A DNA stretch of 64,000 nt from an uncultured Ectothiorhodospiraceae bacterium. Its GTDB lineage: Bacteria; Pseudomonadota; Gammaproteobacteria; CAMYNG01. A model generated the notes under the pieces. The model was not told where the DNA came from, ran no database searches, and saw only the letters and a program-made list of their open reading frames with translations. Positions 9,438 to 46,433 of the stretch are shown one piece after another. Each line of letters starts with the position of its first letter. Position 1 is the first letter of the stretch. Made by a program: the position numbers and the translations under genes. The stretch lies in NCBI GenBank assembly GCA_947259765.1, contig CAMYNG010000007.1, positions 62,001-126,000 of the forward strand, in the 5' to 3' direction.

Positions 9438-10409
9438 CTAGCGGGTCGGGCGGGCGCTACTGTTGGCCCGTTTTGTTTCAATAGCGTCCATAAGCAGACT
9501 GGAAATATCCAGATCAAAAAGTGTATCGAGTTGGCGCACACCTGTCGGGCTGGTGACGTTTATTTCAGTCAGAAAATCGCCGATGACATCCAAACCCACA
9601 AACATCAAACCGCGCCGTCGTAACTCGGGGCCCACCTGTTCACAAATCCATCGATCTCTGTCGCTTAATGGTATACCTTCACCTTTTCCGCCGGTTGCCA
9701 GGTTGGCTCGGGTTTCACCGCGGGCGGGAATTCGCGCGAGGGCATAGGGAACCGGCTCACCATCTATGAGAATTATTCGCTTATCACCGGCTGAGATCTC
9801 CGGAATATAGCGCTGAGCCATGGCCTGGCGTGTTTCCTGCTGAGTCAGGGTTTCAATTATCACGTTTCGATTGGGATCGTTACGGGCAATACGAAATACA
9901 GAACTGCCCCCCATGCTATCCAGTGGTTTGACAATGATGTCTTCGTGCTGGTCGAGAAATTCACGAATGACATCCGGCCGTGCACTGACAACGGTTTCCG
10001 GCGTGCATTGTGGGAACCAGGCAGTGAAAAGCTTTTCATTGCAGTCACGCAAGCTGCGCGGATCGTTAACAATTAGTGTGCCGTCCCGACCGGCCAGCTC
10101 GAGTAAATAGGTGGTATAGATAAAGTCCATGTCAAATGGCGGATCCTTGCGCATTAACACAACGTCCATATCAGACAATGGACATTGTTGCGGATCGCCG
10201 AGATCAAACCAGTTGTCCGGGTCGTTGCGTACTTCAAGGGACTGCACGACCGCGCCGACGTTATTTTCGCGCAGAAAAAGATCGGCCTGGTTGACGTGAA
10301 ACAATGACCAACCGCGAACCTGGGCCGCTCGGAGCATTGCCAGCGTGGTGTCTTTTTTGAAGTCGATGGAACCGATGTGGTCCATGACGAAGGCAAGCCG
10401 CAGCGTCAT
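9438..10409 (-). CDS. gshB: Glutathione synthetase
   Basis: ATP-grasp ligase that joins gamma-glutamylcysteine with glycine. The 323 residues match the bacterial GshB length. Typical segments are MDHIGSIDFKKDTTLAML at the N-terminus, VLMRKDPPFDMDFIYTTY, IIVKPLDSMGGSSVFR for ATP binding, and the C-terminal NVTSPTGVRQL. It is the promoter-proximal gene of the minus-strand block and is divergent from pilG across a 371-nt intergenic region. Confidence 0.97.
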   Translation of the reverse strand: MTLRLAFVMDHIGSIDFKKDTTLAMLRAAQVRGWSLFHVNQADLFLRENNVGAVVQSLEVRNDPDNWFDLGDPQQCPLSDMDVVLMRKDPPFDMDFIYTTYLLELAGRDGTLIVNDPRSLRDCNEKLFTAWFPQCTPETVVSARPDVIREFLDQHEDIIVKPLDSMGGSSVFRIARNDPNRNVIIETLTQQETRQAMAQRYIPEISAGDKRIILIDGEPVPYALARIPARGETRANLATGGKGEGIPLSDRDRWICEQVGPELRRRGLMFVGLDVIGDFLTEINVTSPTGVRQLDTLFDLDISSLLMDAIETKRANSSARPTR

Positions 10410-41706: not shown

Positions 41707-42399
41707 CTAATCAGGGCGCATCAGGGCATCATTCGCTTGCCGTCCAAGCAGATTTAATTCATCTTCCATCTGTTGGCGTGTTTCTTCCAGTTCCTCCGGG
41801 CTCTGACCCCTTGGGATCAGGCAAGGCCTGCCAATAGCAATGGCGATCCGGCTGAAGGGTTTAGGGATCACAAATTGGTCCCAGGAGCTCAGTCGCCATG
41901 CACGCTCGGCCGCATAGGAAAAAGGCACCAGCGGGGCGCGAGTAAATTGAGACAACAATACATCACCAAGTTTGAATTTGTGCAGCGGCCCTTGTGGGCC
42001 ATCCGAGGTTGTAACCGGGGAAACGCCTTGTTTGACGATAATTTCATACATATCGCGCATGGCCTGCGCGCCGGCGCGCGTGGTTGAACCGCGAATCACT
42101 GTTGCACCCCAACTGCGTATAATTCGCGCCGGTATTTCGCCGTCACGCGAAGGGCTGACAAGAAAACCGATCTTACGCCCCTTGCGCAGCAATTTTCGCA
42201 TGTACCAGGCACCGAAGACGTGGTTCTGGTGCCAGTAACAAGGTAAAAAGGTTCTCTCCCCGGAAAGAATGTCACTAAGGTTTTCCTCTCCCAGAATGCG
42301 CTGGACCCGGCAGGTGGACCAGACCAACATAAGCATGGCTTTTACGATTGGTGTGAGGAGAACGATTTTTGTTTTTTGTTTCAGGGTGAGTTGTGCCAT
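41707..42399 (-). CDS. DUF374 lysophospholipid acyltransferase-family protein
   Basis: A 230-residue protein with an N-terminal hydrophobic helix at about 10-30 and the DUF374 pattern. CYWHQNHVFGAWYM holds the His-x4 motif position and LVSPSRDGEIPARII follows. GATVIRGSTTRAGAQAM and TSDGPQGPLHKFKLG are the typical later motifs, with LVPFSYAAERAWRL behind them. Relatives act as membrane acyltransferases on lipid A or lysophospholipids, but the donor and acceptor here cannot be read from the sequence. It lies 48 nt downstream of a phosphopantetheinyl transferase gene on the same strand. Confidence 0.82.
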   Translation of the reverse strand: MAQLTLKQKTKIVLLTPIVKAMLMLVWSTCRVQRILGEENLSDILSGERTFLPCYWHQNHVFGAWYMRKLLRKGRKIGFLVSPSRDGEIPARIIRSWGATVIRGSTTRAGAQAMRDMYEIIVKQGVSPVTTSDGPQGPLHKFKLGDVLLSQFTRAPLVPFSYAAERAWRLSSWDQFVIPKPFSRIAIAIGRPCLIPRGQSPEELEETRQQMEDELNLLGRQANDALMRPD

Positions 42400-42447: not shown

Positions 42448-43107
42448 CTATAGTTTAGACAGTTCGATTCTTGATTGCTTAATTGATGTGTCGGCGCGTA
42501 ACGTTGACACGTGCGTAACGTATCCTGCGTGCAGCGAGACTTCGGCCAGATGCCATCGTCGACCGCGGAAGCTTACGGATTTCCGGGGCGTCGTACTACC
42601 GAAATCAATTTCTCGCATGTGCTGTAATCCCGCGGTACCATCGGCCTTAATGACGGCTTCCTTGCGTGTCCAGAGCGAAAAGAAATCGTCCGGAACCGAG
42701 GCTATATGCCGGCGCTCGGAAGCGGTTAAGACGTTTGTGAGTTTTAAGCCATTGAAAGGTCTGACAAGCTCAGTATCCAGGCCAACCGGGAAATTTAGGC
42801 TGGCCGCGCAGGCGACGAGCTGATTAGAGTGGCTGAGACTGAACTCGATCTTGCTGCGTGCACGGGGTTTGTGGCCGGGTGTGAAATTCAGTGCATCCAG
42901 TTGGAAGTTGTCGACGCCGAGATCCAGGCAGGCCTTTTTAAGGAGCTGGTAGCCGATAAGCGACCGAAGTCTATCCTCCGGTCGGCGCAGTCTTGCTACT
43001 GAGTTTCTCTTTTCGCATGGAAGTTCCGCAAGCCAACGCGCCACATTTGTGCGTTGTACGAACGAGTCGAACATGCTGTAGAAGACGATCACCATAGCTG
43101 GTAGCAT
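42448..43107 (-). CDS. Sfp-type 4'-phosphopantetheinyl transferase
   Basis: Transfers phosphopantetheine from CoA to a serine of acyl or peptidyl carrier proteins. The 219 residues show the Sfp signatures: ARSKIEFSLSHSNQLVACAA, VGLDTELVRPF (metal-binding Asp) and FFSLWTRKEAVIKADGTAG (the W-x-x-KEA motif). The start could also be the Met at 43095. It is divergent from the P450 gene with only 47 nt between the start codons. The fused ACP at 46.3 kb is an obvious candidate substrate. Confidence 0.92.
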   Translation of the reverse strand: MLPAMVIVFYSMFDSFVQRTNVARWLAELPCEKRNSVARLRRPEDRLRSLIGYQLLKKACLDLGVDNFQLDALNFTPGHKPRARSKIEFSLSHSNQLVACAASLNFPVGLDTELVRPFNGLKLTNVLTASERRHIASVPDDFFSLWTRKEAVIKADGTAGLQHMREIDFGSTTPRKSVSFRGRRWHLAEVSLHAGYVTHVSTLRADTSIKQSRIELSKL

Positions 43108-43154
43108 TGAAACACGGGTTCGCCCCTACATACCATGTCGCAGCGAAATTATCC

Positions 43155-44468
43155 ATGAAAGTTGCCGAAGCAAAAACCCGGCCTGTCCCATCCGGTCCTG
43201 ACGAAGCATTCGACCTGAATCCGGACGAGGCGACGTTTCACAAACTGGCCGACTGGGTTTCGAAATATGGGGACATTTTCTCCGTACCATCGGTAAATCG
43301 GCAAAAACCGGTTGTTCTGATCAATCACCCTGACTATATAAAGCATGTCCTGGTCAGTGGGCATGAAAATTACGTCAAGGGATCAGGCTTCGAGATGGTC
43401 AAAATGTTATTGGGAAACGGCATTATTGTTAGTGACGGCCCGTTTTGGCGTCGGCAGAGACGCATGATTCAGCCGGCGTTTAACAAGCAGGTTATCGCCG
43501 GACTTACCGAACAAATGAAACTGGCCAATCGGCGTCTGTTTTCTGTCTGGAGTCAACATGCCGAATCAGGCACCGAAATTAACGTCACCGAAGCCACCAA
43601 TGAACTCGCACTGGAAATAATTCTACGCGCTATCTTCAGCAACGACTACGAACGTATTACCGGCGGTACAAATGCAAACCCATTCGCAATCCTGACTGAA
43701 AGTGTCGCACGAGATTTGCAGCTCGCGTTAAAGTTTCGGGCATTGACCAAAATCGTGCACGAAGCGGTGGCGCATCGGCGTGCTTCCGGCGTGGAGCAGG
43801 AGGACTTTCTGTCTATTTTTCTCGCGGCGCGGGATAAAGACACCGGTGAGCCCATGACTGACAAGGAGTTGGTTGACGAAATTATGACCTTGATTGTTGC
43901 GGGTTCCGAGACCAGCGCTACCACGATGAACTGGGCCTGGTATTCATTAGCCACGAATCCAGATGTTGAAACACGTTTCCATGCGGAGATTGACAGTGCA
44001 GGTTACACTGATGTTCCGGGCTTTGACGATGCCTTGCAGCTCGTTTACACCCGGCAGATTATCGAGGAAACCCTTCGCCTGTATCCGCCGGTCTGGCTGT
44101 TTTCACGCAAGGCCGTTGCCGATGACGCTTTGGCGGGTTTCGCCATCGAGGCCGGTACCGAAATTCTGATAACCCCGTACTTCCTGCATCGGCACAAGGA
44201 CTTCTGGCCTGACGCGGAAAATTTTGTTCCTGAGCGTTTCGATCCGGATGCCGTCAAGCAGCGTCACAAGTTGGCCTTTATTCCGTTTTCGGCCGGGCCA
44301 CGCCGCTGCATTGGAGATTTTTTTGGCATAGTGGAAGTACAACTTCATCTTGGTTTGATGGCCAGACATTTTCGCTTGCGGCTTTCGCCCGGGCAATCGG
44401 CGGAGTTGGCTCCGGAAGTTAATCTGCGTTCAAAGTATCCTCTAATGATGCAAATACAAAAGCGCTAA
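43155..44468 (+). CDS. Cytochrome P450
   Basis: Heme monooxygenase of 437 residues from the ATG at 43155; an upstream TTG at 43107 would overlap the divergent gene start. Key motifs are intact: the I-helix IVAGSETSATTM, ExxR in EETLRLYPPVW, and the heme loop FSAGPRRCIGDFFG with Cys385. The C-helix segment DGPFWRRQRRMIQPAF resembles fatty-acid hydroxylases of the CYP4/CYP102 clans. No ferredoxin or reductase gene is nearby. It is 9 nt upstream of the acyl-AMP ligase/ACP gene, so an acyl-ACP substrate is plausible. Confidence 0.95.
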   Translation: MKVAEAKTRPVPSGPDEAFDLNPDEATFHKLADWVSKYGDIFSVPSVNRQKPVVLINHPDYIKHVLVSGHENYVKGSGFEMVKMLLGNGIIVSDGPFWRRQRRMIQPAFNKQVIAGLTEQMKLANRRLFSVWSQHAESGTEINVTEATNELALEIILRAIFSNDYERITGGTNANPFAILTESVARDLQLALKFRALTKIVHEAVAHRRASGVEQEDFLSIFLAARDKDTGEPMTDKELVDEIMTLIVAGSETSATTMNWAWYSLATNPDVETRFHAEIDSAGYTDVPGFDDALQLVYTRQIIEETLRLYPPVWLFSRKAVADDALAGFAIEAGTEILITPYFLHRHKDFWPDAENFVPERFDPDAVKQRHKLAFIPFSAGPRRCIGDFFGIVEVQLHLGLMARHFRLRLSPGQSAELAPEVNLRSKYPLMMQIQKR

Positions 44469-44477
44469 CGGGTTCCC

Positions 44478-46433
44478 ATGGCCGAATTCAATACCCTGAA
44501 CGAAATACTGCAAGCGAGACGTTCTTCCGACGGATCGATTTTTTTTATTGAAGGCAAACAGGATACTCGCCAACTGGAGTACGCTCAGCTCTATACAAAT
44601 AGTCTCCGCCTATTGTTTGATTTGCAGGAAACCGGCTTGAGGCCTGGCGATCAGCTAACCGTTTTGTTGCGCGACAATCAGCGATTCGTCGAGGTCTATT
44701 GGGCCTGCATACTGGGAGGAATCGTACCGGTACCGGTGGCCGTGGGCATCAGCGATGAACATCGGGCCAAACTGTTGCGAATTTTCAACAAACTTGAACG
44801 GCCGCATCTTTTTACCACCCAGGCTGATCTTGATCGACTCGTAGACTATGGCAAACGTAACGACATGATGGAGTCGGTGAATATCGTTCGGCAAAAGACA
44901 GTGATCACCGATCTGCTTGAAGCTCACGAAACACCGGGCGTGTGCCATACGCCAGCGCCGGGGGATATCGCCTTTATTCAATTCTCTTCCGGTTCTACCA
45001 GTGAACCGAAGGGCGTGGTTCTGACGCACGCAAACATCGTAACCAATATTAGCGCTATCAACAGGGCAGCGGCGCACAGAGCGGAAGATGTCGCTTTGTC
45101 CTGGATGCCATTAACGCATGACATGGGGCTGATTGGCTTTCACCTGGTTATGCTTGCCGTCGGCTGTGATCAGTACTTGATGCCCACCGATCTGTTCAGT
45201 CGTCGGCCGCTACTGTGGATGCAGAAAGCCAGCGAGATCCGGGCAACATTGTCGAGCTCGCCTAATTTTGGTTATAAACATTATCTCAAGGCACTGGGCG
45301 ACAAGCCACTGGATGATATTGACCTCTCAAAATTGCGTCTGATCTACAACGGTGCGGAGCCCATTTCCGTTGATCTCTGTGAAGAGTTTCTGCGTCGCCT
45401 GGCACCCACCGGATTACAACCAGAAGCCATGTTTACGGTTTATGGTTTGGCCGAAGCGACTCTGGCAGTCACCTTTCCATCACTGGATGCGGGTTGTCGA
45501 GCGGTGTGCCTGGATCGTCATGCGATGCGGCTGGGCGACGAAGTTGTTCCCGTGGACCGGAATCATGTAGATGCGGTGTGTTTTGCGCGCGAAGGTTCAC
45601 CGGTACAGGATATGGAAGTGAGAATCACCGATGAGTCCGGCAGCTCGCTGGCGCGGGAACACATCGGACTCATTCACATCCGTGGTGGCAGCGTAACCCG
45701 CGGCTACTATTTAGAAGAAGAACTCAACAAACTGTCCCTAAGCGAGGATGGTTGGTTAAATACCGGTGACCTGGGTTTTCTGACCACCGAAGGTGAGCTT
45801 GTGGTCACCGGACGGGCAAAGGACATTTTGTTTGCCCATGGCCAGAACTACTATCCGCATGATATCGAGGCCGTGGCGTTGCAACTCCCCGAACTCGAGT
45901 TGGGCAAGGTCGTGGCAACGGGAATTCGACGTCCTGGATCGGACTCCGATGACCTACTGGTGTTTATTTTGTTTCGCGCCGATCTGGAAAGTTTTATTGG
46001 CATTGCACGTGACGTGACGCATCACATAACAGAACAAGCGGGTTTGCAGGTTAGTCACGTGATCCCCGTAAAGCGGATCCCCAAAACCACCAGCGGTAAA
46101 ATTCAGCGCGGCAGGTTGGGAGACGCGTTTGTTGAAGGTGAGTTCGACCAGGTGCTCTCGGAGCTGCAAGGCTTATTGGCAAGCCCGGTTTCCACGGATG
46201 ACAGCAGTCTCGATCCCATCGAAGGTAAGCTTAAACAGCTATGCGAAGATGTCATCAAGGATCGGCAAGTCGGCGTCGAGGAAAATTTCTTTGAATTAGG
46301 TATAAGCTCACTGACACTGACTGAGATCCATCAAAGTATCGAGCTCGAATATCCCGGGGTGGTGGATATCACTGATTTGTTTGAGCACCAGACCCTGCGT
46401 GAGCTCGCTGAATTTATCCAACAAAAAACTTGA
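44478..46433 (+). CDS. Fatty acyl-AMP ligase fused to an acyl carrier protein
   Basis: A 651-residue two-domain protein. Residues 1 to about 560 are an adenylation domain of the FAAL type: FSSGSTSEPKGVVLTHANI (about 168-185), YNGAEPIS, VYGLAEATLA, WLNTGDLGFL, and the A10 lysine in KTTSGKIQRGRLG. Residues about 575-651 are a carrier domain with NFFELGISSLTLTEIH, where Ser611 is the expected phosphopantetheine site. FAALs activate a free fatty acid as acyl-AMP and load it directly on a carrier, here in cis. The downstream modification is probably by the P450. No polyketide or peptide synthetase genes follow. Confidence 0.93.
   Translation: MAEFNTLNEILQARRSSDGSIFFIEGKQDTRQLEYAQLYTNSLRLLFDLQETGLRPGDQLTVLLRDNQRFVEVYWACILGGIVPVPVAVGISDEHRAKLLRIFNKLERPHLFTTQADLDRLVDYGKRNDMMESVNIVRQKTVITDLLEAHETPGVCHTPAPGDIAFIQFSSGSTSEPKGVVLTHANIVTNISAINRAAAHRAEDVALSWMPLTHDMGLIGFHLVMLAVGCDQYLMPTDLFSRRPLLWMQKASEIRATLSSSPNFGYKHYLKALGDKPLDDIDLSKLRLIYNGAEPISVDLCEEFLRRLAPTGLQPEAMFTVYGLAEATLAVTFPSLDAGCRAVCLDRHAMRLGDEVVPVDRNHVDAVCFAREGSPVQDMEVRITDESGSSLAREHIGLIHIRGGSVTRGYYLEEELNKLSLSEDGWLNTGDLGFLTTEGELVVTGRAKDILFAHGQNYYPHDIEAVALQLPELELGKVVATGIRRPGSDSDDLLVFILFRADLESFIGIARDVTHHITEQAGLQVSHVIPVKRIPKTTSGKIQRGRLGDAFVEGEFDQVLSELQGLLASPVSTDDSSLDPIEGKLKQLCEDVIKDRQVGVEENFFELGISSLTLTEIHQSIELEYPGVVDITDLFEHQTLRELAEFIQQKT

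Follow-up and report, generated by a model that had tools for sequence, protein, structure and literature searches.

What could a bacterium make with a cytochrome P450 and a fatty acyl-AMP ligase fused to its own acyl carrier protein (FAAL-ACP) when no synthetase modules accompany them? This question is raised by a set of four genes in the window, by which we mean the whole 64,000-nucleotide stretch of contig CAMYNG010000007.1 from an uncultured Ectothiorhodospiraceae bacterium that was analyzed here. The set consists of genes for a DUF374 acyltransferase and an Sfp-type 4'-phosphopantetheinyl transferase (PPTase), both on the minus strand, and for the P450 and FAAL-ACP, both on the plus strand, and all of their catalytic motifs are intact. 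The original prediction, drawn from positions 42448-46433, described a compact acyl-oxidation module and raised the DUF374 neighbor in passing. Though it lies outside that interval (41707-42399), the DUF374 gene is part of the set, and an acyltransferase of this or of the LpxL type proved to be the most constant partner of FAAL-ACP. We favor, with moderate confidence, the interpretation that the module is a self-contained acyl-donor system that would modify a membrane lipid.

Linkage to a lipid acyltransferase

Analysis of the 63 loci with enough flanking sequence on both sides revealed a DUF374 (LpxJ-type) or LpxL/HtrB-type gene near the module in 60. DUF374 was present in 55 loci and the LpxL/HtrB type in seven, some loci having both, and examples of each type were confirmed by Pfam (PF04028 and PF03279, respectively). 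LpxL/HtrB homologs replace DUF374 in Betaproteobacteria and in some gammaproteobacterial loci, and DUF374 was still linked in three loci in which its position had changed (L149, L151 and L156). Tandem pairs of acyltransferase genes were also observed beside the module, of lpxL in L074 and L029 and of DUF374 in L149 and L151; such tandem lipid A-type acyltransferases suggest two acyl transfers or two acceptors.

The same association was seen in a sample of 369 genomes of the class, 23 of which contained FAAL-ACP. DUF374 was found in 19 of these 23 genomes compared to 32 of the 346 others (Fisher test, 1e-14, phylogeny ignored), and in 18 of the 19 it lay within about 4 kb of FAAL-ACP. The sample also included four other genomes from the family to which the window belongs, and FAAL-ACP was found in none of them. 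We consider the neighboring acyltransferase to be the most informative gene of the set.

Recurrence of the gene set

A scan for FAAL-ACP yielded 80 loci, mostly from uncultured Gammaproteobacteria, including many Woeseiaceae, with some from Betaproteobacteria and a group from Bacillota. The Bacillota FAAL-ACPs lacked a P450, and several adjoined further adenylation domains (L075, L077, L078 and L079) as in nonribosomal peptide synthetase (NRPS) clusters, raising the possibility that the proteobacterial form is a repurposed loading module.

When conserved co-occurrence was checked, as the original prediction had proposed, the P450 gene was found directly upstream of FAAL-ACP in 73 of 88 proteobacterial loci from the scan and the class survey combined; these loci had at least 1.5 kb of upstream sequence and include close relatives, among them two identical pairs (L009/L143 and L039/L146). 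In two loci, P450, FAAL and ACP were encoded by a single open reading frame (ORF) containing all three Pfam domains (L005:8615-11956, 1114 amino acids [aa]; L014:8591-11959, 1122 aa), which is strong circumstantial evidence for the proposal that oxidation occurs while the chain is carrier-bound. The full order of the window (DUF374, PPTase, divergent P450, FAAL-ACP) was also present in L139, L140, L141 and L168, and in L014 with the fusion in place of the two separate genes. Because the same order recurs in diverged genomes (40-60% protein identity) that retain invariant or nearly invariant key residues, the arrangement is not due to chance. In addition, this P450 subfamily (E <1e-90) stood beside FAAL-ACP in 18 of 18 genomes of the class sample, counting G247, where an apparent P450 without FAAL resulted from a contig end that cuts FAAL-ACP.

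The P450 gene was missing from the remaining 15 of the 88 loci. These loci were scattered over the FAAL-ACP tree, consistent with the P450 having been lost repeatedly. In L056, FAAL-ACP is preceded by an 83-residue P450 remnant (9747-9995), which appears to represent such a loss in progress. Twelve of the 15 loci kept the acyltransferase, which argues that flow through the module runs to acyl transfer. The interpretation as an acyl-oxidation module is thus supported in part. The P450 is not the constant core, whereas the acyltransferase is nearly always present, so that "acyl-transfer module with an oxidation step" would be the more fitting name. No description of this link between P450, FAAL and lipid acyltransferase was found in the open-access literature, subscription papers lying outside the search.

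Features of the encoded proteins

The window DUF374 protein (41707..42399, minus strand, 230 aa) matched PF04028 with an E value of 6.8e-20 and a score of 70.9 bits against a cutoff of 26.8. DUF374 proteins make up the LpxJ family, whose members, known from Helicobacter, Campylobacter and Rickettsia, are late acyltransferases of lipid A, and residues W60, H61, D86, D132, W172 and D173 are essential in the Rickettsia enzyme (PMC6148475). Residues W56, H57, D86, D133, W173 and D174 of the window protein correspond to these six by motif, and each of the six was kept in at least 67 of 70 module DUF374 proteins. The best Protein Data Bank (PDB) matches of its AlphaFold model (predicted local distance difference test score [pLDDT] of 93.6) were LpxM, PlsC and PatA, the top Foldseek matches being 5knk, 5kym and PatA with template modeling (TM) scores of about 0.5-0.6. 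The module DUF374 proteins form one clade (support 99/96) that is separate from most other gammaproteobacterial DUF374 proteins and is therefore a dedicated subfamily. This clade also holds two free DUF374 proteins, with no FAAL or P450 found beside their genes, that look like relics; one of them, in G090, is accompanied by a PPTase only. A module-type DUF374-PPTase pair with no P450 or FAAL-ACP nearby (L191:5698-7061) is likely to be a relic left by loss of the other genes.

The window P450 (43155..44468, plus strand, 437 aa; PF00067, 5.7e-80) is predicted to be of the fatty-acid-hydroxylase type. It contains the motifs AGSETS249, ETLRL305 and FSAGPRRCIG378. The I-helix Thr, the ExxR motif and the heme Cys were invariant in 75 of 75 P450s and the acid-alcohol pair AGxET was present, as would be expected for a monooxygenase. 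Its nearest PDB relatives by sequence were CYP97, CYP170, CYP184, CYP4B1 and CYP102, and the folds closest to its AlphaFold model (pLDDT 89.3) were those of the fatty-acid enzymes CYP184A1, which has also been solved with oleic acid, and P450 BM3, suggesting a P450 of fatty-acid type. A CYP152 peroxygenase or decarboxylase of the OleT kind was considered and rejected (25 bits with the CypC-family NCBIfam model against a cutoff of 600). The mechanical start of the P450 ORF is an in-frame TTG at 43107; the ATG at 43155 leaves 47 nucleotides of divergent intergenic space to the PPTase start (43108..43154).

The FAAL-ACP gene (44478..46433, plus strand, 651 aa) follows the P450 gene after 9 nucleotides and encodes an AMP-binding domain (5.2e-52) and a phosphopantetheine-binding domain (7.1e-12). 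The latter is the ACP (PF00550, residues 584-647, 46227..46418), with the phosphopantetheine site Ser611 (codon 46308-46310) in the motif GISSLTL; Lys541 is the other key residue. The key residues were kept in 92-93 of 93 FAAL-ACPs and the ACP Ser in 92. The best PDB relatives (6ulw, 6ulx, 4r0m, 3pbk and 3kxw) comprised FAALs and the FAAL-peptidyl carrier protein (PCP) didomain of McyG. The FAAL-type insertion aligned with that of 6ulw, whereas McyG lacks the insertion. The best NCBIfam match was the fatty acyl-AMP ligase model PRK09192, yet the score fell below its cutoff. Loading in cis on the ligase's own ACP, as first proposed, is supported as a prediction.

The PPTase (42448..43107, minus strand, 219 aa; PF01648, 3e-9) has the length of Sfp rather than AcpS, carries the motifs VGLDTE108 and TRKEAVIK147, matched Sfp by phmmer (1.2e-4) and was aligned to Sfp structure 1qr0. 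Residues G107, D109, E111, E148 and K152 of its GxDxE and KEA motifs were present in 15 of 15 PPTases. The coordinates, both spacings, the motifs and Ser611 of the original prediction were all reproduced.

The window lies on contig C7 of genome G000, a 2.38-Mb assembly that is 72.6% complete, which limits every statement of absence made for this genome. One P450, one DUF374 protein and two ACPS-family PPTases were found in it, the second PPTase being encoded on contig C1. The genome also encodes LpxC and three PF03279 acyltransferases. A further gene of the same genome encodes a 965-aa ACP-FAAL-PlsC fusion (L111, G000:C1:216380-217969 and flanks), and long FAAL ORFs of about 930-1030 aa that resemble it occur in many related genomes. 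By virtue of this fusion, channeling from FAAL to an acyltransferase has a precedent in the window genome.

Proposed function

We propose that the PPTase converts the carrier domain of FAAL-ACP to its holo form and that the FAAL domain would then activate a free fatty acid to acyl-AMP and transfer it in cis to this holo-ACP, rather than to CoA, to give acyl-ACP. The P450 would oxygenate the carrier-bound chain, most probably by hydroxylating it at a position away from the carboxyl group. An acyltransferase of the DUF374/LpxJ type could then, at the inner membrane, pass the modified chain from its dedicated carrier to a hydroxyl group on a lipid; lipid A or a related saccharolipid would be the most plausible recipient. 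Extending this to other genomes, we tentatively suggest an undescribed modification of outer-membrane lipid in Woeseiaceae and many environmental Proteobacteria, in which the P450 oxygenates a FAAL-linked, carrier-bound chain and a dedicated LpxJ- or LpxL-type enzyme attaches it to lipid A or to a closely related saccharolipid.

Several observations weigh against this proposal. The function of the module DUF374 proteins may have shifted, because their clade lies outside that of most gammaproteobacterial DUF374 proteins. A role for DUF374 as a stand-in for a missing LpxM was rejected because LpxC is present in the genome together with three PF03279 proteins, which also makes lipid A the more conjectural as the acceptor. 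No other lipopolysaccharide (LPS) genes stand beside the module in the window. Oxidation by the P450 might precede loading, with the free acid as its substrate. The PPTase gene, which was thought to belong to the module, indeed lies near it in about 16 loci, with the window order in five other genomes, but these are a minority. Finally, a gene for a FabH-like KASIII follows FAAL-ACP in about 50 Woeseiaceae loci (e.g. L013:11938-12903, L010 and L015), suggesting elongation or another fate of the chain in that family. Each of six Woeseiaceae genomes checked has two FabH copies, so the module-linked FabH is not the sole housekeeping copy.

Alternative interpretations

The alternative that survives best is a variant of the proposed acyl-donor system in which the acceptor alone differs, the chain going to a non-LPS molecule such as an aminolipid, lyso-phospholipid or glycolipid. 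We hold this to be possible, if doubtful. The separate DUF374 subclade and the three PF03279 acyltransferases already in the genome would accord with another acceptor, as would the fact that PatA-like folds acylate glycolipids. Nevertheless, DUF374 is replaced in other lineages by LpxL/HtrB homologs, and lipid A is the acceptor of those LpxJ and LpxL enzymes that have been characterized (PMC6148475).

In a greater departure from the proposed function, FAAL-ACP and the acyltransferase would serve in salvage, returning released or externally supplied fatty acids to lipids, and the P450 would act independently on free fatty acids in detoxification. The loci that lack the P450, most of which kept the acyltransferase, are compatible with such a division of labor, and the ACP-FAAL-PlsC fusion of the same genome has a salvage-like architecture. 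However, an independent P450 is difficult to reconcile with the in-frame P450 fusions to FAAL-ACP in two loci and with the finding that, within the class sample, this P450 subfamily never occurred away from FAAL-ACP, and we consider this alternative unlikely.

A secondary metabolite, such as a small oxidized fatty acid, amide or polyketide-like product that KASIII would extend in Woeseiaceae, is quite unlikely. Caryoynencin-type polyyne clusters combine a P450, FAAL and ACP, and both the NRPS-like surroundings of the Bacillota FAAL-ACPs and the module-linked second FabH of Woeseiaceae would be in keeping with such a product. In contrast, the constant partner of the module is a lipid acyltransferase, no desaturase, thioesterase, exporter or polyketide synthase (PKS) was a conserved module neighbor at the loci examined, and no NRPS condensation domain (PF00668) was found in the genome, in agreement with the earlier statement that synthetase modules are absent. 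A role as NRPS/PKS starter was likewise rejected, as no synthetase was recognized at the proteobacterial loci.

Although BioI, which takes the place of BioC/BioH and is encoded among bio genes, is a P450 whose substrate is acyl-ACP, a BioI-like chain cleavage to pimeloyl-ACP for biotin is extremely improbable because the genome encodes BioC (239.9 bits against a curated cutoff of 184.95); moreover, no bio gene was recognized at the loci examined and the P450 is nearest to CYP97, CYP102 and CYP184 types.

Additional neighbors and implications

In 45 Woeseiaceae loci, DUF374 is followed on the same strand by a gene for a putative secreted protein, tentatively DUF3108-like (e.g. L018:7092-7829), and a gene for a small lipoprotein occurs as well. 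Both are possible further members of the module.

If the proposed function is correct, many environmental, often sediment-dwelling, Proteobacteria would use a P450 to oxygenate lipid chains on a carrier before transfer, and these chains would start from free fatty acids rather than from the pool of type II fatty acid synthesis (FAS II). A role would then be assigned to a whole DUF374 subclade, and the puzzling occurrence of FAAL-ACPs outside NRPS and PKS clusters would be partly explained. The P450-FAAL-ACP fusions would represent natural single-chain catalysts of fatty acid hydroxylation. Testable predictions also follow for the lipids of Woeseiaceae, a widespread and poorly studied family.

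Comparison with known systems

The window DUF374 protein shares with LpxJ, an enzyme of 3' secondary acylation of lipid A, its Pfam family, the six essential residues (WH, D, D and WD) and the lysophospholipid acyltransferase (LPLAT) fold. It differs in belonging to a separate subclade tied to FAAL-ACP, in a genome that keeps three PF03279 enzymes. FAAL-ACP itself resembles the loading modules of lipopeptide and polyketide synthetases (McyG, MbtM and FadD families) in its adenylation-carrier didomain, FAAL-type insertion and active Lys and Ser, but the proteobacterial form lacks a downstream NRPS or PKS and is partnered instead by a P450 and a lipid acyltransferase. With BioI and other carrier-acting P450s, the window P450 would have in common an ACP-tethered acyl chain as substrate; unlike them, it is CYP97/102/184-like, its relatives are fused to the carrier in two genomes, and it would not serve biotin synthesis. 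The ACP-FAAL-PlsC protein of the window genome also joins FAAL, ACP and an LPLAT acyltransferase, although that acyltransferase is PlsC and not DUF374, the ACP is N-terminal and there is no P450.

In its proposed function, the module comes closest to the rhizobial AcpXL-LpxXL system, in which a dedicated carrier and an LpxL-type acyltransferase deliver an (omega-1)-hydroxylated chain to lipid A (PMC5613085). The rhizobial cluster as described contains FabF/FabZ-type elongation genes without a FAAL or P450 (PMC5613085), whereas the ACP of the window is fused to a FAAL predicted to use free fatty acids and is accompanied by a P450. Each of the two systems has a carrier and an acyltransferase of its own. 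The gene set described here is a new combination of known parts.

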